Source: Alphaproteobacteria bacterium
GTDB taxonomy: Bacteria; Pseudomonadota; Alphaproteobacteria; Rhizobiales; Rhizobiaceae
NCBI GenBank assembly: GCA_024742485.1
Contig: JANSYK010000001.1
Span: 2,356,001 to 2,420,000, forward strand
Direction of reading: 5' to 3'
Length of the DNA: 64,000 nucleotides
Below the pieces are notes generated by a model. It had not been told where the DNA came from. It saw nothing but the letters and a program-made list of their open reading frames with translations, and did no database searches. Position numbers and translations under genes: made by a program. Numbering within the stretch: position 1 is the stretch's first letter; every line of letters starts with the position of its first letter. Shown here piece after piece: positions 15,243 to 50,390 of this stretch.

Positions 15243-16292
15243 TTATTGTGCTCCCGTTTCCGCGATCATCGGTGCCCGTATGATATTGTGAATGCGCGCC
15301 GGCGTTGCAGGCTGCAGATGACGGCCGCTGGTTCCGTCGAGGGTGTTCCGGATGTCATGGACGATCATGCGTCCGATCGGATGCCTGCCGCCTTCCACGG
15401 CAGCAGCCCGGTGCGGCGACAGGATGATGTTGTCGAGCTGTCGAACCGCGTCATCCGGCAAAACCGGCTCCTGTGGAAAGACATCCGTTGCCACGCGGAT
15501 GTGCTGGTCATGGGCCGCTGCGATCAAGGCTTCGAAATCGACCAGGTGGGATCGGCTGATGACAATCACCAGCGTTCCTGGCTTCATCTTGCGGATCGCG
15601 TTCGTTCCCAGGAGTTGGAAATTCTCATCGGTGGGCGCCGCGGCAACAACAATGCACCGCGATGACGCCACCAATCGGTCCAGATTGCAGAATTGTACGG
15701 ACGGATCGTCAAATCCCGACTCCGACAGCCAGGGATCATAGGCCTTGATGCGGGGGGAAAACGGTGCCAGGAGCCGTGCCGTTTCACGGGCGATGGCGCC
15801 GAAGCCAATGAAGCCGATATCCTGATTGTAAAGGGTGAAGTCCGAACCGGCATTTTCACCCAGCCAGTTTTCCTGTCCCTTTCGAAAATTTTCATGCTCG
15901 CTGACGATACCCCGGGCCCCAGAAAGCAGTAGTCCCAATGTCATCTCGGCCACAGAAAACTGAAACCCGGGGGCACAGGATAGAACTTCAACACCGCGAT
16001 CGAAACAATATTCATAGTCGAGCCCGGTGCGAAACGTACCGGAAACCTCGATGATCGCCTTCAGGTTTCCGGCTGTGACCAGATCGCCGCGGCTCAATCT
16101 GGGATGCGCTGCCACGAGAAACGCCGCCCGTGGCAACAAGGCCTCCAGCATGGATCGCTCCATTGGCCGGTCAGCGCCGCCAATCACATTGCACAGGCTC
16201 AGCAATTCACGGTAGTCGTCCGGATGGAACAACTCGTCCCTCGTTCGAAAGTGCTGATCGAGGATCAGGAGCGGTTTGTCGGTCTGGGACAT
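15243..16292 (-). CDS. D-isomer-specific 2-hydroxyacid dehydrogenase family protein
   Basis: A cytoplasmic NAD(P)-dependent enzyme of about 349 residues that interconverts a 2-hydroxyacid and a 2-oxoacid. Rossmann motif [13 protein letters not shown], catalytic Arg in [10 protein letters not shown], Glu in FPQEPV and His in LSPHRAAA fit the family triad. The ATG at 16292 is preferred to the GTG at 16301 because an AGGTG lies just upstream. Its place between permease and ATPase genes of a sugar importer implies that the solute is, or is converted to, a sugar acid. The substrate is not identifiable. Confidence 0.85.
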
Positions 16293-16301
16293 CACCGGCA
16301 C

Positions 16302-17114
16302 CTATTTCACCGCACCCTGAGTCATTCCGCGAACGAAATGACGCTGGAAAAACAGGAACAGCACAACAACGGGCACCGCCATGATAATGGTTCCGGCAGA
16401 CAGTCCGGTGACATCACGCGTCATGGTCCCCTGAAAATTCAGCAAGCCCACCGAAAGGGTCCGCATCTCGTCCCGTGGCAGCAGCAGCAGGCGCAGCAGC
16501 AGGTCGTTCCAGCTCCAGAGGAATTCCAGCAGGGCGGTTGTGACGACGGCCGGAACGGCAATCGGCATGACCACGCGGCGATAAATCTGGAATTCCGTTG
16601 CCCCGTCGATACGTGCCGCCTCGTGCAGGGCTTTCGGAATGCCGACAAAATAGGATGTGAACATGAAGACGAACACGGACACTGCCAGCGCAAGGTCCGC
16701 CAGAATGACACCCAGATGCGTATTGACCAGTCCGATTGACCGGATGATGGAATAAAGAGGCAGGATGATCGCCGTAACGGGGATCATCAGGCCAATGAGA
16801 AACAGGATCTGAATCCAGATCTTGCCGCGAAATTTGAGGAACACCAGCGCATAGGCAGCCATGGACGCAATCACGATCATCACCGCCGCATCGACAATCG
16901 AGATCAGGAGTGTATTGAAGAAATATCGGTTGAAACCGCCCTCGGTCCACACCCTGATATAGTGATCGATCGTCACGTCCAGCGGTGGATACCAGGCGGG
17001 ATTGACCAGTTCCGTGGTCGGCTTCAATGATGTGAACACCGTCAGAATCAGCGGCGACACCATGAGGATCGCAATAATGCCGAGGACAAAAATGAGAGCG
17101 TAGCGGGCAACCAT
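16302..17114 (-). CDS. Carbohydrate ABC transporter permease, MalG type
   Basis: About 270 residues with six membrane helices. The EAA loop reads ALHEAARIDGATEFQIYRR, which docks the ATPase. The true start is the ATG at 17114, one base after the stop of the partner permease; the ORF-track N terminus is upstream read-through. Partner of the MalF-type permease. Confidence 0.93.
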   Translation of the reverse strand: MVARYALIFVLGIIAILMVSPLILTVFTSLKPTTELVNPAWYPPLDVTIDHYIRVWTEGGFNRYFFNTLLISIVDAAVMIVIASMAAYALVFLKFRGKIWIQILFLIGLMIPVTAIILPLYSIIRSIGLVNTHLGVILADLALAVSVFVFMFTSYFVGIPKALHEAARIDGATEFQIYRRVVMPIAVPAVVTTALLEFLWSWNDLLLRLLLLPRDEMRTLSVGLLNFQGTMTRDVTGLSAGTIIMAVPVVVLFLFFQRHFVRGMTQGAVK

Positions 17115-17115
17115 C

Positions 17116-18003
17116 TCAGCGCTCCTCCCGGTTCTGGATCTGCATGTAGATGAGGGTCGCGAGGCTGACGATGACAAGCAGCGAAACGCCGATCGCTGCG
17201 CCGTAGCCATACTCATTTTCCAGAGCGCCACGCTTGTACATGTATGTCGAAAGGATTTCACTGAAGCGGATGGGTCCGCCTTGCGTGGTCGCCCAGACGA
17301 TGTCAAAGACCTTGAAGGATTGCGTCAGGGTCAGGATGAACACGACCGCGGTAACCGGCCGAAGCGCCGGCAGTGTGACAAACCGGAACGATTGCAGGGC
17401 ATTGGCCCCGTCGACGCGCGCGGCCTCATAAAGGTCTTCGTCGACAGCCTGCAATCCGGCGAGAAAGATGATGACACTCAGACCGATCGTCGACCAGGAA
17501 TGGGCGAATGCGAGGGCGTAAAGCACGACATCCGGGCTTCCGAGCCACGGCGTCGCAAAGCCACCCAGACCGATTGCTTCCAGAACCTGGTTGACCACGC
17601 CGGTTGGCTGATACATCCACCTCCAGATGGTCGCGACCGCCATGGGTGAAATCACGACCGGAAGAACGATTGCTGTCTGGATGATCAGTCGCGCCCTCCA
17701 GACACGGGCAAGCATCGCGGCCAGCACGAGGCCGATCCCCACATTGATGACGATAATGACACCGGACCACACGAAGGTGTTCCGAAACGCCTCCCAGAAA
17801 ATCCGGTCGCTGAACAGCCTCTCGTAATTGGCCAGTCCGATATAGTTGCGCTCGGGACTGATACCGTTCCAGTCCGTGAACGAGTATTCGATCACGGAAA
17901 TGGTCGGGTAAATCGCGAACACCATGTAGATGGCGATCGCCGGCAACAGAAAAAAGACAGGCGTCAGTTGCTTGTAGAGCTTGGATTCGGGGTCCAGAAA
18001 CAT
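17116..18003 (-). CDS. Carbohydrate ABC transporter permease, MalF type
   Basis: 295 residues, six predicted membrane helices, EAA loop DLYEAARVDGANALQSFRF. It forms the channel heterodimer with the MalG-type subunit. It begins about 136 bases after the binding-protein gene, and that gap contains two strong hairpins. Confidence 0.93.
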   Translation of the reverse strand: MFLDPESKLYKQLTPVFFLLPAIAIYMVFAIYPTISVIEYSFTDWNGISPERNYIGLANYERLFSDRIFWEAFRNTFVWSGVIIVINVGIGLVLAAMLARVWRARLIIQTAIVLPVVISPMAVATIWRWMYQPTGVVNQVLEAIGLGGFATPWLGSPDVVLYALAFAHSWSTIGLSVIIFLAGLQAVDEDLYEAARVDGANALQSFRFVTLPALRPVTAVVFILTLTQSFKVFDIVWATTQGGPIRFSEILSTYMYKRGALENEYGYGAAIGVSLLVIVSLATLIYMQIQNREER

Positions 18004-18078
18004 CGAAGCACCTCACAATAAGCGCATGGATTTGGGGTCCACGGCGCGAACCGGTTGTCGGTTCGCCGATCAGCGAAT

Positions 18079-18131
18079 GCCCTTCAGCCCGGCAGGCGAG
18101 CCGAAGGGCCGGCTCACATTTGGTGTGAGCC
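18079..18131 (-). terminator. Two intercistronic hairpins between binding protein and permease genes
   Basis: On the transcript, the first is GGCTCACA (18111-18118) with TGTGAGCC (18124-18131), an 8-bp perfect stem. The second is GCCCTTC (18079-18085) with GAAGGGC (18103-18109). No T-run follows, so partial attenuation or mRNA protection is more likely than full termination. Confidence 0.55.
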
Positions 18132-18139
18132 CGCAGTGA

Positions 18140-19450
18140 TCATCGTTCGGACAGTCCGCCCGGCTTCATGATGGTGCCTTTGGCCTTGGCAGCGTCCCAG
18201 GCGGATTGCATTTCCGCGGTAAAGTCTTCCGGCGTCATGACGTCCAGCAAAAGCGCCTGAAGTCCGTCATAGGAGACATTGGTCAGACTTTGCGGTGTGA
18301 TCGTGTCCAGAAACGCCGGTACGGAACCATTGGCTGCATGATCATCGGATGTCTGCCAGATATCGGATGCCAGGGGAGAGAATTCCGCCTTTGCGAGCGC
18401 TTTGTCCAGGGGACCGACCGGGACAACACCACTGTTCAAAAGCGTCACGCGACCGTCGAGCGTGTTGAACATGCGATTGATGAAGGCAACGGCAATGTCC
18501 TTGTGCTCTGAATTCGCGCGAACATACCATCCGCTTCCAATGGAGTTTGTGGGGTGGATCTTCTGGCCGTCTTCAAATGGAGGGACCGCAAAGACGCTGA
18601 AGTCGGAAACCCGGTCACCTGTGGCTTTGATACCACCGTCGATCACCCAGGGTCCGGTAAAGGTCATCGGGATTTCACCCGCCCAGAAACGATCCATCAA
18701 TTCGCCATACCCGATGGCAACCGGGCTGGGTCCGAACCAACCATCCTTGCCCATCTGTTGCAGCTTGGCACTCGCCTTGACAAAAGCCTCATCTGTCCAG
18801 GATCCATCGGCAAAAAGCACATTTTCAATGCCTTCGGGGCCGGCATAGCGACCGAACATCATGGATTGCCAGTGTGAAACCGGCCATTTGTCCGCGCCTG
18901 CCAATCCGATCGGTGTGTCGTAACCAGCCTCCTTGAGTGCGGCAACGGCAGCCTCCATTTCGCTCCAGTTCGTCGGGACGCTGATTCCCGCTTTCTCGAA
19001 AATCGCCTTGTTGTAAAACATGCCCGTGGTTTCGACTTCATTGCCGAACGACCACAATTTCCCGTCGCTCGATGTCTGCGAAATGATGCCTTCGGGAATG
19101 GTCTCATTCCAGGACAGCTCGTAGAAGTCGTTCGTCAGGTCGGCCACGAGCCCGCCATCGATCAGCGCAGCGGGCTGGCCGGGCCCGGTGCCGAAGGTGA
19201 ACAGATCAGGCCCCTCACCGGCAGAAAGCGCCGGAATGAGTGCCGGATTGAAGAGATCGGACGAATTGTTGACAACCGTCAGTTTGACCTCCGGATTTTC
19301 CGAATTGAACTTGTTTGCCAGTTCCTCATAGACCGTGGTCTGCCCCGGCTCGCCGGCGACCCAAACAATGACTTCCGTTTCAGCAGATGCCGATTGCCCC
19401 ATCAAGGCCGTCGACACGGACAACAGTCCGAACAATGCGAGATTTCTCAT
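18140..19450 (-). CDS. ABC transporter extracellular solute-binding protein, family 1
   Basis: Periplasmic sugar-binding protein of 436 residues. The signal peptide ends at QSASA, and the mature protein begins ETEVIVWVAGEPGQTTVYEEL. It has family-1 features such as KLWSFGNEVETTGMFYNKAIFEKAG and FTGPWVIDGG. The ATG at 19450 has a GGGAGGA site. It is the first gene of the LacI-controlled operon. The transported solute is unknown. Confidence 0.92.
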   Translation of the reverse strand: MRNLALFGLLSVSTALMGQSASAETEVIVWVAGEPGQTTVYEELANKFNSENPEVKLTVVNNSSDLFNPALIPALSAGEGPDLFTFGTGPGQPAALIDGGLVADLTNDFYELSWNETIPEGIISQTSSDGKLWSFGNEVETTGMFYNKAIFEKAGISVPTNWSEMEAAVAALKEAGYDTPIGLAGADKWPVSHWQSMMFGRYAGPEGIENVLFADGSWTDEAFVKASAKLQQMGKDGWFGPSPVAIGYGELMDRFWAGEIPMTFTGPWVIDGGIKATGDRVSDFSVFAVPPFEDGQKIHPTNSIGSGWYVRANSEHKDIAVAFINRMFNTLDGRVTLLNSGVVPVGPLDKALAKAEFSPLASDIWQTSDDHAANGSVPAFLDTITPQSLTNVSYDGLQALLLDVMTPEDFTAEMQSAWDAAKAKGTIMKPGGLSER

Positions 19451-19772: not shown

Positions 19773-20834
19773 TTACCCAGCCGGAATGGCGATCGATTTT
19801 TCTGCGGGCCAGTTGATCCAGACATCACCCGCATCGGGGATATCCTTCATCTCACCCTCCTTGGCCAGAATCTTGATGGGTTGATCCTGCCATTCGAGCA
19901 GATAGGTCACCGTCGGTCCGGCAAATATCTTCTGGCGAATGCTTGCCTTGAGGCAATTCATATGGGGATGCTCGTCCGGCCTTTTTGCCGAAACGATCAC
20001 GCTCTCCGGCCGGACAGCAATCGCGCCTGGCGGTCTCGCGTCCTGTTGGTGATCGGCCCACCGAATGGTGCTGCCGTCCGCCAATGTCATCGCCGACGCA
20101 CCGACCGCGCCCTTGAATATGTTTGCCTCGCCCAGAAATCCGGCGGCAAATTCATTGACCGGTGCATGATACATATCGTGCGGAGTCCCGGTCTGAACCA
20201 ACCGGCCATCCTTCAGGATGCCAATGCGATCGCTGAGGGTCAGTGCTTCTTCCTGGTCATGGGTGACGAATATGGTGGTGATTCCCACCTCGCGCTGAAT
20301 GCGTTTCAGCTCGATCTGCATATCGACGCGCAGCGCCTTGTCCAGCGCACTCAACGGTTCATCCAGCAAGAGAACCCGTGGCTGTGTGACGATTGCCCGC
20401 GCCAGCGCCACGCGCTGCCTTTGTCCACCGGAGAGCTGGTGCGGTCGGCGCTCACCCAAATGCCCTAGCTGCACCAGCTCAAGTGCCTGTGCCACATTGC
20501 GCGCAATCTCCGCCCTGGATTGCTTTCTGACCCGCAAACCGAACCCGACATTGTCGGCAATGCTCATATTGGGAAACAGCGCATAGTTCTGGAACACCAT
20601 GCCGATTTCCCGTTTCTCGACCGGGACGCGCTCGACCGGCTGATCGCCGATCACGACCGAACCGCTGTCGGCAAACAGAAATCCGGCAATCACGCGCAGC
20701 AGTGTCGTCTTGCCGCTGCCAGATGGCCCCAGCAGACCGAAAAACTCGCCATCGGCAAAATCGAGCGAAACATCGTCGAGCGCCTTCATGGCACCGAAAT
20801 GCTTGTTGATATTGGCAACCCGAACCCCGGCCAT
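19773..20834 (-). CDS. ABC transporter ATP-binding protein, PotA type
   Basis: A 353-residue ATPase. Walker [12 protein letters not shown], signature [16 protein letters not shown], Walker [13 protein letters not shown], switch His in [13 protein letters not shown]-terminal TOBE domain with AVRPESVIV. It overlaps the preceding permease gene by one base (TGATG) and closes the gntR operon. Confidence 0.93.
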
Positions 20835-21622
20835 CAGCGTTCTCCCCCGAAATTGGCGTAGCGTGCAGCCAGAAGCATCAACGACATGGAAATGACGATG
20901 ATGATTGTCGAAATGGCATTGATCTCCGGCGTGAAACCTTTGCGAATGGCCGTGTAGATGACCACCGGCAGCGTGCTGTCCCCTGGTTCGGCAAGAAAAT
21001 AGGAAACGACGAACTGATCAAAGGACACCGCAAAGGCGAACAGCGCCCCGGCGATGATTCCCGATGCGATCCAGGGCAAGGTCACGGAGCGGGTCACCTC
21101 CCAACTGCTGGCGCCAAGCGAACGTGCGGCTTCCTCCAGTTGCGGGTCAAAGGTGCGCAACCGCGCGGTCACCACAACAATCACATAGGGCAACGCCAAG
21201 GCGACGTGCCCGATGATGACAGCGGGCGCCCCCCGGCCAAGCCCGATCGAAAAGAAGAAGATCAGCATCGCAGTGCCGGTAATGAGCCAGGGAATGGCGA
21301 TAGGCGGGAACAGGAGCGCCTGCAGGATGACCTTTCCGCGGAACTCGTAGCGAAAAAACGCAATGGCCGCGGCCGTTCCCAATGTTGTCGCAATGACCGT
21401 GGTGGTGCACGCAATCCAGACGCTGCTCCACGCCGCATTCAGGATTTCGGAATTGTTCCATAGTTTTTCATACCAGCCCGTCGTGAAGCGGATCGGCAAT
21501 TGGTAAAATTCCGACTGGTTGAACGACATCACCGCCATGACCAGGATCGGCACATAGAGAAAAGCCAGTACGACGCCAAGATACACACGACCCAGCCGCT
21601 CGAGAAACCGCCCCATGGCCAT
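20834..21622 (-). CDS. ABC transporter permease, PotC type
   Basis: About 262 residues with six helices and EAA loop QLEEAARSLGASSWEVTR. The ATG at 21622 overlaps the upstream TAA by one base; the longer ORF-track N terminus is antisense-like read-through of the previous gene. It pairs with the PotB-type permease. Confidence 0.92.
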   Translation of the reverse strand: MAMGRFLERLGRVYLGVVLAFLYVPILVMAVMSFNQSEFYQLPIRFTTGWYEKLWNNSEILNAAWSSVWIACTTTVIATTLGTAAAIAFFRYEFRGKVILQALLFPPIAIPWLITGTAMLIFFFSIGLGRGAPAVIIGHVALALPYVIVVVTARLRTFDPQLEEAARSLGASSWEVTRSVTLPWIASGIIAGALFAFAVSFDQFVVSYFLAEPGDSTLPVVIYTAIRKGFTPEINAISTIIIVISMSLMLLAARYANFGGER

Positions 21623-22482
21623 TATTGCGCCCTCCTGAGAACCGGACTTGAAACCGCGAGGATCAGCAGCACTACGCCCAGCAGAATGAACGACAGGGCT
21701 GCACCCAACGGCCAGTTGAAAACCGCGACGAACTGATCCTCGATGACGGTGCCGAAAAATGTGCCGGACCGGCCACCCAATATGCGCGGCTCCATGAAGG
21801 ATCCAACCACGGGCACGAAGATCAGCACCGCCCCCGCGATCAACCCCGGCAGCGCCAGCGGTATGATGATGCGCCACAAAATCATGCGGCGCGGAGCACC
21901 CATGGAACGGGCCGCATCGATCAGATTGTCGTCGATCGCCTGAAGGGCCAGATAGGATGTCAGGATGACGTAGGGCAGGTAGGAGTGTACCAGTCCGATG
22001 ACGATCGCCGGGTAGCTGAACATCAAATTGACCGAAACCTCGAATGGCAGGATCAGGTCGAGCACGCTGTCGATGACGCCATTGCCCCGCAATACGATGG
22101 CCCAGGAAAAAATCCGCACCAGGCTGTTGCTCCAGAACGGCAAGATCACCAGCAGGAACAGGGCTTCACGCCATCGGCCCTTGATCGTTTTGGCCAATAC
22201 AAAGGCGCACGGGAACCCGATCAGAATGCAAAAGCCGGTGACAACCAGCCCGAGGGTCAGGGACCGCACGAGCAGTTTGAGATAAAAGCCCTTCTCGAAG
22301 AACTCCATGTAATTGGCGGCCGTGACAAACCACTCCCGGTCGCCGAATGGCGCTTCGCTGAGAAAGCTGAAAAACAGCATGGCGGCCAGTGGCAGGAACA
22401 CTGCCACCGTCAGCCAGATATAGGCAGGGCTGATCATCGTGGCAGCCCGAAGCCCGTCCCGGCGTGCCAATGTTGAGCTCAT
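21622..22482 (-). CDS. ABC transporter permease, PotB type
   Basis: 286 residues, six helices, EAA loop NLIDAARSMGAPRRMILWR. It follows the binding-protein gene by 24 bases. Family members import polyamines, but related clusters move other cations and small metabolites. Confidence 0.92.
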   Translation of the reverse strand: MSSTLARRDGLRAATMISPAYIWLTVAVFLPLAAMLFFSFLSEAPFGDREWFVTAANYMEFFEKGFYLKLLVRSLTLGLVVTGFCILIGFPCAFVLAKTIKGRWREALFLLVILPFWSNSLVRIFSWAIVLRGNGVIDSVLDLILPFEVSVNLMFSYPAIVIGLVHSYLPYVILTSYLALQAIDDNLIDAARSMGAPRRMILWRIIIPLALPGLIAGAVLIFVPVVGSFMEPRILGGRSGTFFGTVIEDQFVAVFNWPLGAALSFILLGVVLLILAVSSPVLRRAQ

Positions 22483-22506
22483 GATCAGCCCTCCCCGATC
22501 GTGTTT

Positions 22507-23565
22507 CTACTGGGCGTTGGCCTTTAGTTCCTGCCAAAGCTCCAGATAGGTTTTGCGGGTTTCATCGGACACGGGCTGCATGAACTGGACACGTGCGACG
22601 ACGGCAGGATCTCCGAGCGTCGCCCGGTTGAAATCGTCGGCGGGAAGGGCTGCGGCCGCTTTTGCATTCGCCGAAGCCGGCGCGCCGCTCTCTGCCCATT
22701 TGACGTAGAATTGCGGATCAATCATGTAGTTGATGAATTCCCGCGCCGCTTCCCTGTTTTCCGAGGTTGCCGGGATGGACAGACCGTCCAGCCAGCCGAT
22801 GGCACCTTCCTCGGGAACAACGAACGCAACAGGCAGTCCCTTGGCAATCGAACGTCCGGCCGATCCACTCCAATAGGGAGCCATCAAAAAGTCTCCGGCG
22901 GCAAAGAACTGGTTCCAGTCATTTTCTGAACTCCAGAAGGTCTTGATCTGGGGCAGCAGTGTTTCCAGCTTGGATTTCACCGCGTCGAGATCCTTGACAT
23001 CATTGATGTTCTGACCGGTGGCCAAAGCGGCGAACTGGACGGATTCCAGCGCGTCGTCGCGCCATCCGACCTTGCCCGTGTATTGATCATCCCACAGCAC
23101 CTGGATCGATGTCGGCAGGGGTGACACCTCATCCTTGTTGACCCCGAATGATGTCAGGCCCCAAACCCAGGCGACGCCATTGACCTTGCCACCGACATTC
23201 AGTTCGGGATTTCCGCCGAGGTTGGGCGCCAGATCTGCGAAATTCGAAATATCGGACGTGTCGATCGGGCTGATGAGACCTTCTTCCAGTGCTTGCCCGG
23301 TGAACGCCGAATTGATCAGCACCACATCATAGGCGCCCGGATTGGTTCTCAGTTTGGTCAGCATCTCCTGTTCGGAGTTGAAATAATCATGCACCACGGT
23401 GTGCCCGGTCTTCTCCTTGAATTCGGCAACCGCCCAGTCGGAATCCGTGCCGTATCCCTTCCAGTTCAACACGCGGATTTCATCGGCGTGAACAGCCCCC
23501 ACACCCATGCCAAGCACGAGTGTTGCCAGCGCAGCACAACCGGTCCATTTTGCATTGATACTCAT
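22507..23565 (-). CDS. ABC transporter solute-binding protein, PotD/spermidine-putrescine type
   Basis: A periplasmic binding protein of about 352 residues. Signal peptide ends at AVHA, mature start DEIRVLNWKGYGTDSDWA. The family-13 layout is clear (YFNSEQEMLTKLRTNPGAYDVV, APYWSGSAGR, EEGAIGWLDGLSIPATSENREAA). The ATG at 23565 after GGGAG is the start; the ORF-track extension of about 99 residues is spurious. Its operon partners, a glycohydrolase and a sugar kinase, argue that the ligand is a ribosylated or glycosylated compound rather than a simple polyamine; this is inference. Confidence 0.9.
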   Translation of the reverse strand: MSINAKWTGCAALATLVLGMGVGAVHADEIRVLNWKGYGTDSDWAVAEFKEKTGHTVVHDYFNSEQEMLTKLRTNPGAYDVVLINSAFTGQALEEGLISPIDTSDISNFADLAPNLGGNPELNVGGKVNGVAWVWGLTSFGVNKDEVSPLPTSIQVLWDDQYTGKVGWRDDALESVQFAALATGQNINDVKDLDAVKSKLETLLPQIKTFWSSENDWNQFFAAGDFLMAPYWSGSAGRSIAKGLPVAFVVPEEGAIGWLDGLSIPATSENREAAREFINYMIDPQFYVKWAESGAPASANAKAAAALPADDFNRATLGDPAVVARVQFMQPVSDETRKTYLELWQELKANAQ

Positions 23566-23581
23566 TTCTTTTTCTCCCTTT

Positions 23582-24574
23582 TTAGATGTTTGACGTCGTT
23601 TCCAATTGGTCCCACGGATCGGAATGCTCCGATGACGTGCCCTTTCGGCTGGCCAGAAAGGCCAGTGTTTGTTCGCGGTCCGGTGCGGTGGCCGGACCGT
23701 TCTGTTCAGTTGAAAGCGCCGCTGCGGCATTGGCGAAGCGGGCGGCGGCAACGGGTGTTGCACCGGTGGCCAACGCCGCAATGAACGAACCGATATGGGT
23801 GTCGCCGGCTCCATTGGTATCAACCGTGTCCACTGAATAGGATGGCACGAATTCGGCGTCACAGCCCCTCAGCGCCAGCCAGCACCCCTGCGCACCATGT
23901 CGCACAACGGCACCGGTTGCCGTTTCATGCATGGAGGCCGCCATCAATTCAGCTGCACGCCGGGGATCACTTTCACCGGTCATGATACGCGCCTCGTCCG
24001 CATTGGCGCTGATCCAGGCACACCGTTCCGTCAATCGCGCCAGCATGTCCGGCGCAATCTGGGAAACCACCGGCGATGGATCGAACACCAGTGCCGGTGT
24101 GGTCGGAAAGCCCGACAGCCAATCATCCAGAATGTCCGGATTGCGACTCAGCGCAAACGTGTATCCGGATATGAGGACAAATTCGAAAGGTGAAGCATCG
24201 ATATGCGCAAATTGCGAGGAACCAAAATACCGCTCGGCCCCGGCCTGCGAGACAAATGTTCGCTCACCCTGGCTGTCGACCAGCACAATGCATGTTCCCT
24301 GGTCACAATGCTCCAGCTGGCTTTGCAGGACCGGAAACCCGTATTCCGACAAGGAACTTCTGACGATATCCGCAAACCGGCCTGTGCCGTGTGATCCACC
24401 ATAGGATACCCGCATGCCTGCCCGGCTGGCTGCAACCATAGCATTGAACCCACCACCCGGGGCGATCATGCTCTCCTCGCTGACAGCCTCCTCGCCGGCG
24501 CGCGGCACAGTTTGGACGCGATAAACCAGGTCGATCACCACCCCGGACATCTGCAAAAGGCGCGCTGAACTCAT
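23582..24574 (-). CDS. PfkB family carbohydrate kinase
   Basis: A 330-residue ribokinase-like sugar kinase, ATP-dependent. The N-terminal signature region has APGGGFNAMVAASRAG, and the C-terminal signature DTNGAGDTHIGSF holds the catalytic base Asp and the anion hole. It overlaps the glycohydrolase gene by four bases (ATGA), so the two are translationally coupled. The sugar freed by the glycohydrolase is its likely substrate. Confidence 0.9.
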   Translation of the reverse strand: MSSARLLQMSGVVIDLVYRVQTVPRAGEEAVSEESMIAPGGGFNAMVAASRAGMRVSYGGSHGTGRFADIVRSSLSEYGFPVLQSQLEHCDQGTCIVLVDSQGERTFVSQAGAERYFGSSQFAHIDASPFEFVLISGYTFALSRNPDILDDWLSGFPTTPALVFDPSPVVSQIAPDMLARLTERCAWISANADEARIMTGESDPRRAAELMAASMHETATGAVVRHGAQGCWLALRGCDAEFVPSYSVDTVDTNGAGDTHIGSFIAALATGATPVAAARFANAAAALSTEQNGPATAPDREQTLAFLASRKGTSSEHSDPWDQLETTSNI

Positions 24575-25620
24575 GTGGCCTGCCCCATCAGAATCCGGGC
24601 TTCACTTTCCCTGCCACGCCTGAGGGTCAGAAGATTCCTTGTGATGGCATCGAAGTTTAGGTTGTTGACCGCAACAAGCCTGGCAGTCTTGTCTTTCGGA
24701 AAGGATCCCGCACCGTGAACCGCACCACACATTGCACACGCAATGGCGCCGATCGTATCGGTGTCGCCGCCAAGATTTGCCGCGAGCAGACCGGTGTTCC
24801 ATCCATTGCCCCTGGTGAATCTGAACAGCGCGAAGGCTGCCGGTATCGACTCCGTGGAAGCAACACTGGTGCCGATCCTTTCGCGAATGGCCGCCGGCAG
24901 CGAAGCGCTGTCGCACGCGTCGGCAATGTCGAACGCCAGTGCAATGCGACGAGCAATCCCGGCCTCCCCGCCCATGCGACTCTCGACAGTTTTGGCGGCC
25001 ATTAACGCGGCATCCGCAGCCTCTTCGACATTGGCCCCGCCGACCCCCGCGCTGATTGCGGCGGCAACGGCGGCAGCCGACGCGATCGCTTCAACCGTGT
25101 TGTGGGTGATACGGCAGGTGGTTGCGACGAATTCCGTCAGCGCAGCCGGGTCCTCCAGTGGCATGACGATGCCGACGGGGCAGATGCGCATGGCGGCGCC
25201 ATTCGTATCTCCCGACAGGCCCGTTTCCTCCGGAGAGGCCCCGTCAAGCAGGGCTTTGATCGCGCGTTTTGTCGAGGGGCCGAGCAGATCGTGAAGGCCG
25301 CGCTCCTTGACGGACGCTTCCCATTCCACCAGTCGTCGCGCCCATCCTAATTCATCAAACGCTGCGGGCGACTTGAGCAGATGCTCCGCCAGCAACACGG
25401 TTTGCTCCGTGTCATCGGTGATGGATGCCGCGATCAGACCGTGCGCAATGGGGTGCCCGTCGACCGGTGCAACGAAGTCGGAGATTTCACCATAGGTTTC
25501 CAAAATCTCATGGGGCGAGCAGGACTGGGTCGGCATACCCAGCGCGTCGCCAAGCGCGCAGCCCAGTAACGCGCCCATCGCACGTTCCTGTTGCATTTCC
25601 TGGGTGAATGGGGTCGCCAT
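24571..25620 (-). CDS. ADP-ribosylglycohydrolase (DraG-like) family protein
   Basis: About 349 residues, all-helical ADP-ribosylglycohydrolase fold. The metal-site motifs are present: GCALGDALGMPTQ near the N terminus, ITDDTEQT with the paired aspartates, and NLGGDTDTIGAIACAM near the C terminus. Family members cleave N- or O-glycosidic bonds to ADP-ribose or related ribosides. The ATG at 25620 overlaps the gntR stop by one base; the 58-residue ORF-track extension is spurious. Placement with an importer and a sugar kinase points to catabolism of an imported riboside rather than reversal of protein ADP-ribosylation. Confidence 0.88.
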   Translation of the reverse strand: MATPFTQEMQQERAMGALLGCALGDALGMPTQSCSPHEILETYGEISDFVAPVDGHPIAHGLIAASITDDTEQTVLLAEHLLKSPAAFDELGWARRLVEWEASVKERGLHDLLGPSTKRAIKALLDGASPEETGLSGDTNGAAMRICPVGIVMPLEDPAALTEFVATTCRITHNTVEAIASAAAVAAAISAGVGGANVEEAADAALMAAKTVESRMGGEAGIARRIALAFDIADACDSASLPAAIRERIGTSVASTESIPAAFALFRFTRGNGWNTGLLAANLGGDTDTIGAIACAMCGAVHGAGSFPKDKTARLVAVNNLNFDAITRNLLTLRRGRESEARILMGQAT

Positions 25621-26357
25621 CAAAACTCCAGATGCAGCCCGAACCGGGTCGGATCCAATATGCTCTCGACGAACTCGATGACATCGCCGTCCACGGTTCT
25701 GCTGACCCGTCGCAGATGAAGCATGGGTTCGCCCGGCGTGCGCGCCATGATTTTTGCATCGGCGGTCGAGATCGAAGGCAGCACATGCGCCCATTCCTCG
25801 CCGTCATGGATGGCAAGACCGGCAGCGGCCAGGGTCTCACCCAGCGAATCATTGATCAGCCCGTTCTCCAGCGCATCGAAAAACTCGTCCCGCCAGGGTG
25901 TGCGGCTGCGTTCGAGCGAAATGCCCATGCCGTTCTTGCTCAACAGCCGCAGGCGATTGACACAAAGATATTCAATCGCGCCAAGACCGAGAAACTGGGA
26001 TGTTTTCAGGCAGGTCTGCCGCTCGATTCCCAGAAGCCGTGTTTCCACCTTGTCGTCGGTTTTCGACAGCGCTCGTGTCCAGCCGAGCGCGTTGTCGATC
26101 GACGCGCCCTCATAGGTCACGAATGACCCGATACCCGTTCGCGTCGTTATCAGGCCTTGTCGAACCAGTTGTTCAAGACCCTTTCGGACCGTATTGCGGC
26201 TGACGGAAAAACGGCGGACAAGCTCGTTTTCGCTTGCCAGTTGATCACCCCGCGCAATCGCGCCGGAGCGAATCTCCTGCTCCAGTGTGTGGGCAATGCG
26301 TTCCGATTTCGGCAGGCCGATGCCGGGGTTGCCCAGGTGCGGCTTCTGTTTTACCAC
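25620..26357 (-). CDS. GntR family (HutC/UTRA) transcriptional regulator
   Basis: An N-terminal winged helix (SENELVRRFSVSRNTVRKGLEQL) is joined to a UTRA effector domain of HutC type (LLSKNGMGISLERSRTPW, FVESILDPTRFGLHLEF). Likely represses its own operon: gntR, glycohydrolase, kinase, then the importer. The ORF track starts at TTG 26378, but that codon lies inside the first of four tandem 10-base repeats; the GTG at 26357, with AGGAA upstream, is preferred. About 245 residues. Confidence 0.87.
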   Translation of the reverse strand: MVKQKPHLGNPGIGLPKSERIAHTLEQEIRSGAIARGDQLASENELVRRFSVSRNTVRKGLEQLVRQGLITTRTGIGSFVTYEGASIDNALGWTRALSKTDDKVETRLLGIERQTCLKTSQFLGLGAIEYLCVNRLRLLSKNGMGISLERSRTPWRDEFFDALENGLINDSLGETLAAAGLAIHDGEEWAHVLPSISTADAKIMARTPGEPMLHLRRVSRTVDGDVIEFVESILDPTRFGLHLEF

Positions 26358-26370
26358 GGCAAATTGGTTC

Positions 26371-26410
26371 CTGTTCAAACTTGATCATACCTGTTCATAC
26401 TTGTTCATAA
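26371..26410 (-). promoter_or_regulatory. Four tandem 10-bp repeats, probable GntR operator
   Basis: On the minus strand the sequence is ATGAACAAGT-ATGAACAGGT-ATGATCAAGT-TTGAACAGGA wait-free head to tail at (shifted) 10-base register; on the plus strand the units are CTGTTCAAAC, TTGATCATAC, CTGTTCATAC, TTGTTCATAA. The 10-base period puts every unit on the same face of the helix. Position at the head of the gntR operon suggests cooperative binding by GntR. Confidence 0.65.
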
Positions 26411-26645
26411 AATGATGAAATGGTCAGGATGTCAATGTCTGGACGCTCGCGCTTATGCACAGGTCACGGCTCTGATCCAGGCGAATCGTCACATTGCCTC
26501 TGGAGAATCAGCCAGCATCCTCGCCGCGGCCGCTGACATTCATTGTGATGACCTGACCACAAAAAACCCAAATGCTGCCACGCGCGCCGATGGCTGCGTT
26601 CAAATGTCGATATGCAAACCTCATCCGTGGGCCAGGGTCAGGACC

Positions 26646-27536
26646 CTAGCCAAGTTCGCCGTTGATCTGCTTTTCCCGTTTGGTGATTTCCGCCACAAGA
26701 AAGCGCACAAATGTCTTCACCCGAACCGAGGAGCGCAGGTCCGGGTGGGTGAGAACCCAGCCGGGGCGCGATGAAACCGGACCCGTTCCCGGAATGCGAA
26801 CCAGTCCGTCCAGGGCATCGGCAAAGAAACAGGGCAAGGACACCATGCCAAGCCCGGATACGGCCGCCTGTGCCTGATCGAGCATGTCGGGGATCTGATG
26901 GCGCACTCCAGCGTTGGGAAACGGGCCCTGCTTGACCCAATTGTTGCTGAGGTCATGGACCCCTCGCCCTATCCAGGTTGCGTTCGTCTGATCTCCTTCG
27001 AACCAGTGTTCGGAAATGTAATCGGGCGCCGCATAGGCCCGGTCGACGAAGTCCGGCAGCCTGCGACCGACGAGATTGTCATTGGGACTGAATTGGGAGC
27101 GGAACGCAACATCGGACGCACCCTTCATGAGATCGTCTATCTCGAAACTTGAGTGAAGTAAGATTTCGATTCCCGGGTATTTCTGCGAAAACGCCGCAAT
27201 AAGGGGCATGATCATGTATTGAGACATGAGTGGAGGCGAAGTGACCCTCACCTGACCGGACAACACGGTATCCAGACTTGCTGCCTCGCGTTGAAAACCA
27301 TGGACTTCGCCTTCGACTTTTTCAGCCTTTGCGAAGATCTGTTCAGCCATGGCGGTCGCAAGCATTCCGTCCCGTGACCGGGTAAACAGCACCGCACCCA
27401 AACTGGTTTCCAATTCGGTTAGGTGTCGTGATACCGTGGAATGGCTCATCCCCAGTTCCGCTGCGGCACTGCGGACAGATCGGCCGCGAAACAGGGCAAG
27501 AAACACTCTGATATCGTTCCAATCCAGCATGGCCAT
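26646..27536 (-). CDS. LysR family transcriptional regulator
   Basis: 296 residues. The N-terminal helix-turn-helix reads DWNDIRVFLALFRGRSVRSAAAELGMSHSTVSRHLTELE, followed by the periplasmic-binding-like effector domain. Divergent from the gene at 27650, which is its probable target. A six-base inverted repeat with an 11-base spacer lies between them. The effector is unknown. Confidence 0.9.
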   Translation of the reverse strand: MAMLDWNDIRVFLALFRGRSVRSAAAELGMSHSTVSRHLTELETSLGAVLFTRSRDGMLATAMAEQIFAKAEKVEGEVHGFQREAASLDTVLSGQVRVTSPPLMSQYMIMPLIAAFSQKYPGIEILLHSSFEIDDLMKGASDVAFRSQFSPNDNLVGRRLPDFVDRAYAAPDYISEHWFEGDQTNATWIGRGVHDLSNNWVKQGPFPNAGVRHQIPDMLDQAQAAVSGLGMVSLPCFFADALDGLVRIPGTGPVSSRPGWVLTHPDLRSSVRVKTFVRFLVAEITKREKQINGELG

Positions 27537-28400: not shown

Positions 28401-29762
28401 TCAGTCCCTGTCGGTTGCAATGCCGTCATCGAAGACAATACCGTGACGCTTGATCTTGTCATAAAGGCCTTTGCGGGAGATCCCGAAAGCCTCGTAGACC
28501 GGTTTCAACTGGCCATTGTGTCGGGACAACTCGGCTTCGATCGCGGCTTTTTCGAATGCCGCCACCCGGTTGGCGAGGTTCGATGACGGATCAGACGCCG
28601 ACTCGGTTTCGACGTCAGACCCGCTCCACATGCCAAGCACGAACCGGTCGGCGAAATTGCGCAGCTCGCGCACATTGCCGGGCCAGTCGCGCATCAGCAA
28701 CTCGGCCTCCAGTTCCGGGCTGATATCCGGAATCTCCCGCCGGTAACGGGCGCGCGCATCACGCGCCAGGTGGAAAAACAACAGGGAAATATCGTCCTTG
28801 CGGGCACGCAGCGGCGGAATCTCGAGAGTAATCACATTGAGGCGATAATAGAGATCGGGCCGGAACGTTCCCTTTGATCCTTCCTTTTCCAGATCGAATT
28901 TGGTCGCCGCAACGAATCGCACATCCAGGGGGATGGTCTGATTGGAGCCGAGCCGCTCGATACTGCGCTGTTCGATCGTCCGCAGCAACTTGGCCTGAAG
29001 ATCAAGCGGCATCGATTCGATTTCATCAAGAAAAACCGTACCGCCCTCGGCGTGCTCCAGCTTTCCGATCCTCTGTTTCTGGGCGCCGGTGAACGCGCCC
29101 GGCTCGTGACCAAACAATTCGGATTCAAAAATATCCGCCGGAAGGGCAGCGCAATTGATGGCGACAAAGTTGCCCTCCCTCCGCGGCCCGTAATCATGCA
29201 ATGCCCGCGCCACCACCTCCTTGCCGGACCCGGTCTCGCCGACGACCAGGACATCCGCGTCGGTCTCGGCCACAGCAGCGATCTGGCCACGCAACCGGAT
29301 TATCGCCGCCGACCGTCCGACCAGGCGCTGGGTCAGATCGTTGCGCTGATCGAGCTCGGTGCGCAGGGTCCGGTTTTCCAGAACCAGCCGACGTTTTTCC
29401 AGCGCCCGTTCGATCACCGCAGAAAGACGAGACACGGCAAAGGGTTTTTCGATGAAATCATAGGCGCCGCTGCGCATCGCCTCGACGGCCAGATCAACGT
29501 CGCCGTGGCCGGTGATGAGAATGACAGGGATCGACGGATCAATCGCCAGAATTTTCTTCAGCAAGATCAATCCATCATCGCCCGGCATCCGGATATCGGA
29601 AACAACGACGCCATATTCATCGCGTCCAAGAGCATCCAGCACTGGCGCGGCACGCTGATGGACGACGACATCCAGGCCTTCCAGTTCCAGACCCTGCGCC
29701 AGCGCATGGCGCAGATCGTCATCATCATCGACCAAGTGAATAAGGGGCGTGTTGCTGCTCAC
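28401..29762 (-). CDS. dctD: Sigma-54-dependent response regulator, DctD type
   Basis: A 453-residue enhancer-binding protein of the NtrC family. The receiver domain (1-120) has phosphoacceptor Asp56 in VVVSDIRMP and Lys106. The AAA+ domain has Walker A GETGSGKE (about 175) and the sigma-54 contact loop GAFTGA (about 222). A Fis-type helix-turn-helix ends the protein (AFGISRKGLYDKIKR). It lies seven bases after dctB. The expected role is activation of C4-dicarboxylate uptake; the sigma-54 promoter of dctPQM in this window is a plausible target. Confidence 0.92.
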   Translation of the reverse strand: MSSNTPLIHLVDDDDDLRHALAQGLELEGLDVVVHQRAAPVLDALGRDEYGVVVSDIRMPGDDGLILLKKILAIDPSIPVILITGHGDVDLAVEAMRSGAYDFIEKPFAVSRLSAVIERALEKRRLVLENRTLRTELDQRNDLTQRLVGRSAAIIRLRGQIAAVAETDADVLVVGETGSGKEVVARALHDYGPRREGNFVAINCAALPADIFESELFGHEPGAFTGAQKQRIGKLEHAEGGTVFLDEIESMPLDLQAKLLRTIEQRSIERLGSNQTIPLDVRFVAATKFDLEKEGSKGTFRPDLYYRLNVITLEIPPLRARKDDISLLFFHLARDARARYRREIPDISPELEAELLMRDWPGNVRELRNFADRFVLGMWSGSDVETESASDPSSNLANRVAAFEKAAIEAELSRHNGQLKPVYEAFGISRKGLYDKIKRHGIVFDDGIATDRD

Positions 29763-29769
29763 CGATCGA

Positions 29770-31521
29770 TCACTCCGCTGCCAGGCTTTCGGTTTCGGCC
29801 ACTTTCAACCGGACGGCAAACCGCGCCCCACCATGCTCGCTCGCCTCCAGATCGATGCGACCGCCAAAATCGTGAACGATGCTGCTGACGATGGACAGGC
29901 CGATCCCGATACCGGAGCCGACATCCTTGGTCGTGAAAAACGGATCGAAAACCTTTGCGCGCATATCTTCCGGAATACCAGGACCGTTGTCCTCGACCCG
30001 CACGACAATCTCTTCCGGGCGCTCCTGAACCGAAATCCACACGCATCCCTGCTCGCAATCCTCCACGGCGTCGACCGCATTGTTGATCAGATTGACGAAA
30101 ACCTGCGACAGGCGGATGTGACCACCCAGCACGTGATACGGCGCGTCAGAGGCGCCACGCTGCAAAAGCACACCGGCCTTGCGGGCACGCGGCTGAACAA
30201 GCTGCAGGGATTCATCGAGAACCGGGCCAAGCGGCACGGCGCTGGTCTTGTTGCCGGGTTTGCGCGAAAAGGACAGAAGACTGCGCGACAGGCCCGCCAT
30301 GCGATCGACGAGGCCGCCGATCCGGGTGAGATTGTCGCCGACACTGTCCAATTTGCCCTTGTCCAGAAACCGTTTGGCATTGTCGGAATAGGTCCGCAAG
30401 GCCGCCAGGGGCTGGTTGAACTCATGGCTGAGCGCTGCCGACATTTGACCGAGCACGGCAAGCTTTGCGGCCTGCACCAGTTCGGCCTGCGTTTTGCGCA
30501 GCACGTCTTCGGTCTGACGGCGCTCCTCGATCTCATGGGACAGCGACAGATTGGTCTGGCTGAGCGCGCGGGTTCTTTCCCGAACAAGCCGCTCAAGCCG
30601 CAGCGCTGCTGCCCGGTCCTGGCGCATGCGCAGTGTGTTCGCCTCCCGCCTCTGGATGAAAAAGGCCATGACAGCGCCGAGCAACAGGCAGACCAGCGCG
30701 GCGATGACACCTCCGGTCCAGCGTGCGGTGGCCAGTGGTCGTTCATCGGACAGTACGTGCAACTCCCAGCCCAGCAGCGGCAGGGTTCGCGTCACATCCC
30801 CATGGGGGATCTGGTCACCGCCCAGGAACATGCGTCGGGCCGATGTCGCTCCGGACATCAATGTCGACGCCGGTTTCAGCCGCCAGGCCGGACGGTTGGT
30901 CAAGAAGACGAGGCCGCTCCGGTCGGTCACGAAAATCGGGTTCGTCGACAGCGACCAGGTTGCCTCCACCGGGTCGAAATCGACATAGACGGCAAGAATG
31001 CCAAGCAATCTCCCATCGTCCCATACGCCGGAAGCAAATCCGTAGATCCTCTCACCGCTTTCCAGCGATATCGCCTGCCGCCCGAGCCTGCCCTGCCGGG
31101 CCGCTGTCAGCAATTGACCCTGCGCTGAAATATCCTCGGCAAACAGATCGTGGGCGGTCGCCAGCACGCGCCCGTCGGGATACAGGAAGGCAACCTCCTT
31201 GGCGCCGGACATGCCATGAATTTCAATCGCCTTGCGCCGTGCTGCACCATCATCGACGCCGCCACTCCGGAACAGTGTCAGGACGGATGCCTCGCGTGAC
31301 AGCAATGGCGGCAACAATCGGTACTTGTCGAGGATGCCCGTTAGCGCTTCTGCCTGAACGGCCAGCGTTTCGGCCGCCTTGGCCTGCAACTGCCGCTCGG
31401 CCTGCTCGCGCCAGAGTTCGGCGCTGATCACGATCGCCGCGGCACTCACTGCCACAAACAGGCACGCCGCGATGATGCGTGTCCGGCGGAAAGATCCACG
31501 AATTTCGGCGCCACGTGTCAT
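29770..31521 (-). CDS. dctB: C4-dicarboxylate-type sensor histidine kinase, DctB
   Basis: A 583-residue membrane kinase. TM1 is about residues 15-36, then a periplasmic dCache-like sensor (about 40-265), TM2 about 268-290, a coiled-coil linker, and HisKA with His366 in [10 protein letters not shown]. The ATPase domain carries the N box [10 protein letters not shown]1 DNGPGIP, F box DPFFTTK and a G2 stretch GSGIGIGLS. The pair with DctD and the [11 protein letters not shown] motif place it in the DctB group. It follows modC with the same orientation after 32 bases, but co-transcription with mod is not certain. Confidence 0.9.
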
Positions 31522-31553
31522 GGCGTCAGATTATGCAGGTTTTGAACCATGGT

Positions 31554-32648
31554 CTAGCGACGCTCCGAAAGGGTGCGTTGACCGATTGCCACCGTCTTGA
31601 TCAATGCGAAGAGGGACAGACCCTCACGGATCCCCAACTCATCATGGGCCTGCCGCGTGATGCGGGCGCGCAATGCCTGTCCACCGGTTTCAAGAAGAAC
31701 TTCCACATAGGGACTGTCTTCAAGGGCGATCTGTTGAACAATCGCCGGCAGGATATTGCGAAAGCTGATCCCTCCGGGACGGTTCAGCGAAAGTGCCACG
31801 TCACGCGCCTTGATCCGCATGCGAACCCGCTCACCCTGCTGCAGCTTCGAATTGACAACCGTCAGCGCCGCTGCTCCGTCGAGCATGATCGTCTGCAGGC
31901 CGCTATTCGGAGCGCGGTCCGCCACTGTACCGACCAGCAGTGAACTTGCCTCATGACGGCCGAGCGCCGGACCGAAATCAAGCCGGCTGAACATCTCGAT
32001 TGCGTCACCGGCACCAAGAACAGCACCTTCCGAGAGGACAACCAGCGTGTCGGCAAGGCGGGCCACCTCATCCATCTCGTGGCTGACATAGACAATCGGC
32101 AACCCGGTCACATCACGAATCTCTTCCAGATAGGGCAGGATCTCCCGCTTGCGTGCATTGTCCAGCGAGGCCAGCGGCTCGTCCATCAGCAGAAGGTCTG
32201 GATCGGACAGCAGCGCCCGGCCAATGGCGACACGTTGCTTTTCGCCGCCGGACAGGCCGGCCGGATAGCGCTCCAGCAAACCGTCGATCCCGAGCAGATC
32301 AGCGATGCGGTCAAAATCGACGGAGGCCTTGCGCTTGCCCGCCCAGCGGCCATAGGTCAGGTTCCGTCTTACGGTCATGTGGGGAAAAAGCCGCGCATCC
32401 TGAAAGACCATTCCCACCCGGCGCTGATGAGACGGCAGGTCGATCCCCTCGGCCCTGTCCAGCAGCACCCGGCCGCCGGCGACAATCCGCCCGGTGTCGG
32501 GCCTTGCCAGTCCGGCGATCATTTTCAGGATCGTCGTCTTGCCCGCCCCGGAGTGTCCGAACAGTGCGGTGATGCCGGGTCCGGCGATAAATTGTGCCTG
32601 CAGATCGAAGGCGCCAACCCGTGAGCGAAGGGAAACTTCCAGGCTCAT
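31554..32648 (-). CDS. modC: Molybdate ABC transporter ATP-binding protein ModC
   Basis: About 364 residues. Walker A GHSGAGKTTIL, signature [16 protein letters not shown], Walker B LLLMDEPLASLD, and a C-terminal Mop/TOBE domain that binds molybdate (IKARDVALSLNRP). The ATG at 32648 overlaps the modB stop (ATGA); the ORF-track start adds 12 residues. Last of modABC. Molybdate uptake feeds molybdenum enzymes such as the CO dehydrogenase encoded 13 kb away. Confidence 0.94.
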   Translation of the reverse strand: MSLEVSLRSRVGAFDLQAQFIAGPGITALFGHSGAGKTTILKMIAGLARPDTGRIVAGGRVLLDRAEGIDLPSHQRRVGMVFQDARLFPHMTVRRNLTYGRWAGKRKASVDFDRIADLLGIDGLLERYPAGLSGGEKQRVAIGRALLSDPDLLLMDEPLASLDNARKREILPYLEEIRDVTGLPIVYVSHEMDEVARLADTLVVLSEGAVLGAGDAIEMFSRLDFGPALGRHEASSLLVGTVADRAPNSGLQTIMLDGAAALTVVNSKLQQGERVRMRIKARDVALSLNRPGGISFRNILPAIVQQIALEDSPYVEVLLETGGQALRARITRQAHDELGIREGLSLFALIKTVAIGQRTLSERR

Positions 32649-33331
32649 TGCTGCCCCCAGCGTCGGATCCGCCGGCCGATCCATTCGGCCAGCAAGACCG
32701 ATCCGATCGCCAGACCGGCGGAGATCGATATCATCACGGCAACCGCCTGATCGCCGGTCGGGCTCTGCAACAGCGAATAGATGGCCAGAGACAAGGTCTG
32801 TGTTTCTCCGGGAATATTCGAAACAAAGGTGATCGTAGCGCCGAATTCCCCGAGCGCCTTGGCAAATCCAAGTACGGCTCCGGCGAGAACACCCGGCAGG
32901 ACAAGCGGAAACGTCACCGTCACGAATTGGGTCAGGCGCGTTGCGCCAAGCGTGTCGGCTGCTTCCTCAAGACCCCTGTCCAAATTTTCAATGGCAAGTC
33001 GCATCGGCCGAACCAAAAGTGGGAAAGCCATGACACCGGCGGCCAGCGCCGCACCGGTCCACTGGAAGGCAAGCTCTAGCCCGATGCCGTGCAATGCGTG
33101 CCCCAGATAGCCGTTGCGTCCGAAAACGACCAGCAGCAGATAACCGGTCACCACCGGCGGCATCACGAGCGGAAGGGTGATCAATGCCTGTAACAGGCTT
33201 TTGCCGAAAAAGTCGCGCCGGGCCAGGAGCCATGCCACGCCAAACGCCAGCGGCAGCGAAAACACCATCGCAATCGCCGCGACCTTCAGCGAAAGAAGAA
33301 CGATTTCGAGCGCGGCGCTACCCGTCATCAA
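32645..33331 (-). CDS. modB: Molybdate ABC transporter permease ModB
   Basis: 228 residues, five to six helices. The permease loop reads LEEAADTLGATRLTQFVTVTFPLVLPG and the block FAKALGEFGATITF is typical of ModB. It overlaps modA by 14 bases and modC by four. Confidence 0.94.
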   Translation of the reverse strand: MMTGSAALEIVLLSLKVAAIAMVFSLPLAFGVAWLLARRDFFGKSLLQALITLPLVMPPVVTGYLLLVVFGRNGYLGHALHGIGLELAFQWTGAALAAGVMAFPLLVRPMRLAIENLDRGLEEAADTLGATRLTQFVTVTFPLVLPGVLAGAVLGFAKALGEFGATITFVSNIPGETQTLSLAIYSLLQSPTGDQAVAVMISISAGLAIGSVLLAEWIGRRIRRWGQQ

Positions 33332-44941: not shown

Positions 44942-45012
44942 AGACAGACAGAAGCGCCCGCACGCACGGGCAGCAGCTAACTCCACTCCAGCCACCACGA
45001 CGGAGGCACGAA

Positions 45013-47918: not shown

Positions 47919-47974
47919 GCCGAACACGGCGAAACCCGTTCCGGCGGGTTTCGTCAACTGTGTGATTCGATGGA

Positions 47975-48310: not shown

Positions 48311-48311
48311 G

Positions 48312-49190: not shown

Positions 49191-49191
49191 C

Positions 49192-50385: not shown

Positions 50386-50390
50386 CACTG

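Follow-up and report, generated by a model that had tools for sequence, protein, structure and literature searches.

What is the function of an operon that joins an enzyme of the ADP-ribosylglycohydrolase fold with a PfkB-family kinase and an importer of the polyamine kind? Such an operon lies in the 64,000-nucleotide stretch of a Rhizobiaceae genome analyzed here (hereafter, the window; assembly GCA_024742485.1, contig JANSYK010000001.1, positions 2,356,001 to 2,420,000), where seven genes run on the minus strand from window position 26378 to 19773, in the order gntR, glycohydrolase, kinase, binding protein, permease B, permease C, and ATPase. The original prediction took the operon for a catabolic route in which a solute is imported, cleaved, and phosphorylated. 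The co-conservation of the enzymes with the importer supports this reading, and we consider it very likely that the operon encodes an import, cleavage, and phosphorylation route for an N-glycoside. As the substrate, we propose, with a probability of about 0.5 judged from sequence comparisons, a cationic pyridine riboside, that is, nicotinamide riboside or nicotinate riboside, perhaps in the form of the alpha anomer. The components of the operon, including the genes for an ATP-binding cassette (ABC) importer, are:

25620-26378, minus strand: GntR/UTRA-family repressor (PF00392, 60.8 bits; PF07702, 30.3 bits; 25% identity to E. coli YegW/GgaR)
24571-25620, minus strand: DraG/ARH-fold putative N-glycosidase, proposed pyridine-riboside or pyridine-ribotide hydrolase (PF03747, ADP_ribosyl_GH, 199 bits, cut-off 26)
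23582-24574, minus strand: PfkB-family kinase, YegV-like (PF00294, 142 bits)
22507-23565, minus strand: PotD-like periplasmic binding protein (SBP_bac_8; best sequence match among solved structures PotD, E = 1.8e-44)
21622-22482, minus strand: ABC permease, PotB-like (PF00528, BPD_transp_1; PotB model, 187.7 bits)
20834-21622, minus strand: ABC permease, PotC-like (PF00528, BPD_transp_1; PotC model, 225.2 bits)
19773-20834, minus strand: ABC ATPase, PotA-like (PF00005, ABC_tran; PF08402, TOBE_2; potA subfamily model, 356.0 bits, cut-off 355.6)

The gntR and glycohydrolase genes overlap by 1 base, the glycohydrolase and kinase genes by 4 bases, and a gap of 16 bases separates the kinase from the binding protein; these spacings, and the location of all seven genes on the minus strand, are as originally predicted. 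The edge then assigned to gntR, 26410, is not an in-frame start: the frame is open from a TTG at 26378 (or a later GTG), and positions 26404-26370 form the operator.

Is this arrangement accidental? Among 151 genomes of the same family, the glycohydrolase (threshold E <= 1e-30) is present in 14, the host included, where it is the sole PF03747 protein of the genome. The kinase, binding protein, and permease genes lie behind it in 13 of the 13 family relatives, and gntR was matched upstream in all but two (L016 and L020); one locus (L023) is cut by the contig end ahead of the ATPase gene. At 80 loci from other species, the kinase adjoins the glycohydrolase in 79 cases and gntR does so in 74; the complete ABC importer is present in 52, with 3 more loci cut by contig ends, and 22 carry an NCS1-family permease instead. 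The glycohydrolase and kinase thus keep company with the importer, as the original prediction demanded of relatives, and, given its conservation across families, the arrangement is far beyond chance.

The NCS1 form is found in Pseudomonas, Actinobacteria, Paraburkholderia, Plesiomonas, and Lactiplantibacillus, and a third form, in which a nucleoside:H+ symporter of the YegT type replaces the importer, in Enterobacterales, Pantoea, and Vibrio-like genomes, E. coli yegTUVW being the known example. A maximum-likelihood tree of 85 glycohydrolases joins the window and E. coli types with the other importer types, and the importer type changes 9 times along this tree, where the minimum is 5, which indicates that the enzyme pair stayed together while its importers were swapped. 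The association of the same enzymes with nucleoside or nucleobase carriers points to an N-glycoside substrate.

Several individual loci depart from these layouts. In a gammaproteobacterium (L144), a glycohydrolase of the NCS1 clade has as its neighbor a copy of the ABC importer that is transcribed divergently. In Pseudomonas typographi (L102:11082-12068), the importer looks deleted, since the NCS1 permease is missing and the start of its frame leads straight into that of the kinase. In a Rhodobacteraceae metagenome-assembled genome (L082:5511-13874), the glycohydrolase and kinase genes are followed by a PhnC-type ABC ATPase, and a divergent importer of the polyamine type lies upstream of them. 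A Yersinia plasmid (L123:5207-11783) encodes, in one run, GntR, glycohydrolase, a SIS-domain protein, kinase, a phytase-like protein, and a UshA-type 5'-nucleotidase.

What bond might the glycohydrolase cleave? The DraG/ARH family is known for taking ADP-ribose off proteins and nucleic acids. The PF03747 domain, the bimetal motifs, and the fold all place the window enzyme in this fold family. The metal-site motifs TDDT (residues 68-71) and GGDTDT (D286, D288, T289), as well as TNGAAMR (139-145) and TH (172-173), are invariant or nearly so; for the AlphaFold model (pLDDT 94.5), the best Foldseek match is 1t5j (MJ1187; TMt 0.90), followed by DraG (0.84) and ARH3, including 7arw, the complex of ARH3 with alpha-NAD+. 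Although the fold, the bimetal site (TDDT...GGDTDT), and the NGAAMR motif are shared with DraG and ARH1-3, identity to these proteins is only about 20-27%, and the enzyme falls below the equivalog cut-offs for functional DraG (80.9 bits versus 337) and Tri1 (66.5 versus 490). It differs from them also in being encoded with an importer, and no ADP-ribosyltransferase was seen in this context. ARH3 is reported to split alpha-NAD+ rapidly at its N-glycosidic bond (PMC8319183; structure PDB 7arw), so the DraG/ARH fold is able to break the bond between nicotinamide and ribose when it is alpha-configured. A narrower version of our proposal, which we regard as unlikely, is a pathway dedicated to alpha-anomeric pyridine ribosides (alpha-nicotinamide riboside or alpha-nicotinamide mononucleotide), where a small-molecule hydrolase of the DraG/ARH fold would replace the usual beta-specific nucleosidases. 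Both compounds are products of NAD breakdown and anomerization, and, were this version true, E. coli yegTUV would encode this pathway too, with a different importer.

What does the importer carry? The NCBIfam models nearest to its components are of the PotD/PotB/PotC/PotA kind, and the best folds for the AlphaFold model of the binding protein (pLDDT 88.3) are those of PotD, including 7xjm and 1pot. This proximity in both fold and sequence speaks for a genuine polyamine importer whose genes by chance lie in one operon with those of a kinase and of an enzyme that removes ADP-ribose from proteins, without a common pathway. All components score below the equivalog cut-offs, with only the potA subfamily model just reached, and the binding protein obtains 156.7 bits where the PotD cut-off is 582. 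The amine-binding residues of PotD, which we take from general knowledge of its structure to be W34, E36, Y37, Y85, D168, E171, W229, W255, and D257, were followed through 71 binding proteins. W34, Y37, D168, E171, and W229 are kept in all 71, and W255 and D257 in 70, one sequence being unreadable there, whereas E36 is replaced by G in all 71 and Y85 by A in 65. With seven of the nine ligand residues kept, the importer resembles E. coli PotABCD in sequence, fold, and cation cage, but it lacks E36 and Y85 throughout and is encoded with a glycohydrolase and a kinase. Hence the ligand is probably cationic and bound otherwise than spermidine is in PotD; retention of three carboxylates and the Trp cage, together with the loss of E36 and Y85, would fit a compact aromatic cation.

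The expectation of a cationic ligand in the original prediction accords with the seven PotD residues, each kept in at least 70 of the 71 proteins, but its suggestion of a polyamine or a polyamine conjugate does not hold up, given the replaced E36 and Y85 and the presence of the same enzyme pair elsewhere with NCS1 permeases or nucleoside:H+ symporters. A chance association with a polyamine importer is highly improbable also because nearly all ABC-type loci retain the enzyme pair together with the importer, and no DraT-like partner is found among the recurrent neighbors of 122 loci.

Which of the two enzymes acts first? The catalytic GAGD motif (D258) and D15/GG/N44, which correspond to the D16/GG/N46 positions of ribokinase, are kept in 99 of 99 kinases, but K43 of RbsK is deleted in 97 of the 99 and E143 is not conserved; an SGY motif is common to the window kinase and YegV. 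Against the ribokinase (RbsK) equivalog, the window kinase scores 112.8 bits, where the cut-off is 299.65. With K43 and E143 missing, it is not a ribokinase by these criteria, contrary to the ribokinase-like role originally assigned to it, and its substrate may be a nucleoside. The kinase might act first, converting a nucleoside to a nucleotide, as PsuK does before PsuG, or second. In Enterococcus (L120:4069-6978) and Listeria (L121:5079-7984), a relative of the glycohydrolase is encoded behind a PRD regulator and a beta-glucoside-type phosphotransferase system, and no kinase is listed in the operon. If the phosphotransferase system supplies the phosphate there, the glycohydrolase of these bacteria acts on a phosphorylated glycoside, and this distant branch would favor, by analogy, the kinase-first order.

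Other known nucleoside pathways offer partial parallels. The PsuK/PsuG system combines nucleoside uptake, PfkB phosphorylation, and C-glycosidic cleavage of pseudouridine, but PsuK has no significant match to the window kinase (E = 0.36). PsuG and Urh1, which hydrolyzes nicotinamide riboside to base and ribose, have folds unrelated to that of the window glycohydrolase. The Salmonella STM4066-like locus clusters a major facilitator superfamily transporter, a PfkB-family nucleoside kinase (aminoimidazole riboside kinase), a DraG-fold glycohydrolase, and GntR, but the glycohydrolase sits on a very long separate branch and the kinase is 24% identical to that of the window.

Do the surroundings of the operon hint at the substrate? 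We clustered all non-core open frames around the 122 loci and asked, unguided, which clusters recur across at least four genera. The recurring metabolic neighbors are genes of nicotinate degradation: nicA, nicB, nicR, nicD, nicE, nicX, nicF, and nicT, identified by homology to one annotated Pantoea cluster, the gene order and products of which fit this pathway (the nic letters are our reading). A cysteine hydrolase recurs as well, and the remaining recurrent clusters are ABC ATPases of generic type, regulators of the LysR type, genes of enterobacterial synteny, and a handful of small or unidentified groups; the survey recognized no genes of purine, pyrimidine, or polyamine pathways.

In Paracoccus tibetensis (L047), the order is nicC, B, A, R, E, D, X, F, followed by gntR and the rest of the operon, such that nicF adjoins gntR. 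The nic genes likewise adjoin the operon in Aurantimonas (L078, L086), Jiella (L081 and L140, on the same 336,990-bp contig), Burkholderia stagnalis (L032; nicT, nicR, nicB), and the gammaproteobacterial genome G502 (L144/L157), and, on a Pantoea plasmid (L125), they lie beside a YegT-form operon, that is, one with a different importer. On plasmids of L. plantarum, the order is an NrtR-like regulator, NAPRT (683 bits, cut-off 469), a nicotinamidase (close to ones of solved structure, for example 3o90), glycohydrolase, NCS1, and kinase; no convincing NrtR-type palindrome was found between pncA and the glycohydrolase gene there.

Among 50 glycohydrolase-holding genomes, NicE (threshold E <= 1e-40) is present in 9, and in 4 it is on the same contig near the operon, compared with an expectation of 0.1 (about 1% of the genome lies within 25 kb). 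Because three of these four genomes belong to the Aurantimonadaceae, they represent only two independent lineages in the 50-genome sample; the linkages in Burkholderia, G502, Pantoea, and Lactiplantibacillus came to light by other routes. We take the nic linkage to be real for some lineages and suggestive for the family as a whole.

Three candidates for further nicotinamide-related genes were rejected. The isochorismatase-family gene beside NCS1 in L084 and L088 lacks the catalytic-Cys motif of a nicotinamidase. The cysteine hydrolase at the operon end in L043, L049, L050, and L098 has ATDCCV, lacks the D-x-H...H metal site, and scores 28 bits against a nicotinamidase cut-off of 174. The genes of NicA and XdhC type between 45 and 51 kb in the window are not a nic cluster; they belong to a CO-dehydrogenase/xanthine-oxidase-type cluster (44078-51332) that consists of a CoxM-like flavoprotein, a 2Fe-2S subunit (45031-45501), a large subunit, a MoxR-like ATPase, and an XdhC-like gene.

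The isochorismatase-family cysteine hydrolase with the ATDCCV-type motif is attached to both the ABC and NCS1 forms of the operon, at the following positions, and its substrate may reveal the released base:

L043:15736-16266, L049:15640-16179, L050:15670-16194, L098:15693-16184, L100:9462-9986, and L114:13307-13834: cysteine hydrolase without the nicotinamidase metal site

Several observations weigh against a pyridine riboside as the substrate, a proposal drawn from gene neighborhood. Most copies of the operon, that of the window included, adjoin no nic cluster, and in a separate phylum sample of 399 genomes, NicE is near the operon in none of the four genomes that hold both glycohydrolase and NicE, although one of these, G502, has other nic genes near the glycohydrolase. 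The host genome contains only weak NicE-like matches and no clear NAPRT. The pncA and glycohydrolase genes of L. plantarum stand 306 bases apart, and in a second lactobacillus type, no NAD genes occur in the stretch seen. The kinase is without the ribose contacts of ribokinase, and E. coli GgaR is reported to respond to ADP-glucose (PMC10819704). The GntR operator, sought ahead of the nic genes, was found ahead of gntR only and thus gives no sign that the nic genes are co-regulated. As for other NAD-related functions in the host, PnuC was searched for and is absent, and a nicotinamidase-like gene (L177) carries the DWHPDEH and GLATDFC motifs.

The same route could serve another cationic or modified nucleoside or N-glycoside, such as an imidazole riboside, a methylated purine nucleoside, or an N-glycosylated amine, with the nic linkage incidental or lineage-restricted. 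We hold this alternative to be possible, at less than even odds: the Salmonella relative pairs its glycohydrolase with an aminoimidazole riboside kinase, NCS1 and nucleoside:H+ symporters take the place of the ABC importer, nic genes are absent from most loci, and several genera carry the cysteine hydrolase within the operon. Yet the nic and NAD-salvage genes are the recurring metabolic neighbors, in several separate arrangements and with three importer types, and the survey recovered none of the purine, pyrimidine, or polyamine pathway genes.

How is the operon regulated, and does the regulator identify the substrate? Two elements precede gntR:

26430-26435, minus strand: TTGACA, likely -35 element
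26370-26404, minus strand: operator of four ACARG-type repeats with a 10-bp period (first bases 26404, 26394, 26384, and 26374)

ACARG-N5-ACARG occurs in 67 of the 91 upstream regions of relatives, compared with a mean of 0.12 and a maximum of 1 in mononucleotide shuffles of these regions. In 54 of 61 relatives, TTGAC precedes the operator by 24-50 bp (mostly 28-34 bp), and in the window the distance is 31 bp; a promoter scan did not report TTGACA at 26435-26430 because the -10-like TTTTAT (26412-26407, 17-bp spacer) violates the scan rule. The sequence ACARGTNTGAACARG has a single exact match in the whole host genome, the operator of this operon. This agrees with a repressor that has only one target, which is what has been reported for E. 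coli GgaR/YegW (PMC10819704). The GntR repressor would bind the 10-bp-spaced repeats at the promoter and be released by the substrate or the product.

The original statement that no characterized pathway has this exact gene set is fair, but the core of gntR, glycohydrolase, and kinase corresponds to E. coli yegW-yegU-yegV, the regulator of which has already been studied (PMC10819704). The three core genes are adjacent in the window, and each is homologous to its E. coli counterpart, making this an operon of the YegU-V-W type. The likeness to yegTUVW extends to a GntR/UTRA regulator with a single target, a DraG-fold glycohydrolase (34% identity), a PfkB kinase (29%), and a transporter in one locus; the E. 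coli operon differs in its importer, a nucleoside:H+ symporter, its divergent regulator (25% identity), and its promoter, as the yegW promoter is devoid of ACARG repeats. The literature on the glycohydrolase-PfkB pair yielded the GgaR paper alone, besides unrelated papers or genome notes. According to that paper (PMC10819704), GgaR (YegW) no longer binds DNA in the presence of ADP-glucose and influences how much glycogen accumulates. Together with the ADP-ribosylhydrolase fold, this report favors a role of the operon in sugar-nucleotide or ADP-ribose (ADP-glucose) metabolism, in which the glycohydrolase would act on compounds bearing an ADP-ribosyl or ADP-glucosyl group; a role of this kind has been proposed for E. 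coli yegTUV and GgaR. We consider such a role improbable: ADP-glucose and ADP-ribose are negatively charged and would be hard to reconcile with the three invariant pocket carboxylates of the binding protein, and no glycogen genes recur near the operon at the 122 loci, only the enterobacterial fbaB and thi synteny.

How, then, could the route proceed with a cationic pyridine riboside? The PotD-type ABC importer would bring the riboside into the cell, the DraG-fold enzyme would hydrolyze the N-glycosidic bond between base and sugar, and the PfkB kinase would supply the phosphate, so that the route would yield a pentose phosphate and the free base. This base could enter NAD salvage or, where a nic cluster is present, nicotinate degradation. 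Transport and hydrolysis of nicotinamide riboside have precedents in Nrt1, a nicotinamide riboside transporter (PMC7072712), and in yeast Urh1 (PMC11241417).

Two other systems flank the operon in the window. Downstream, 322 bases from the ATPase gene and on the same strand, a second, sugar-type ABC importer (an SBP_bac_1 binding protein and two permeases) is encoded along with a D-2-hydroxyacid dehydrogenase (15243-19450, minus strand). Upstream, behind a LysR gene (26646-27536), a DctD/DctB-like two-component pair lies beside a molybdate-type ABC system (28401-34118, minus strand).

If the proposed function is correct, a widespread branch of the DraG/ARH family, with its importers, kinases, and links to vitamin B3 genes, would consist of small-molecule salvage or catabolic enzymes, and the proteins that many Rhizobiales and Rhodobacterales carry under the annotation 'spermidine/putrescine ABC transporter' would import something else. 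It would also provide a directly testable function for the unexplained yegTUVW operon of E. coli and its relatives.

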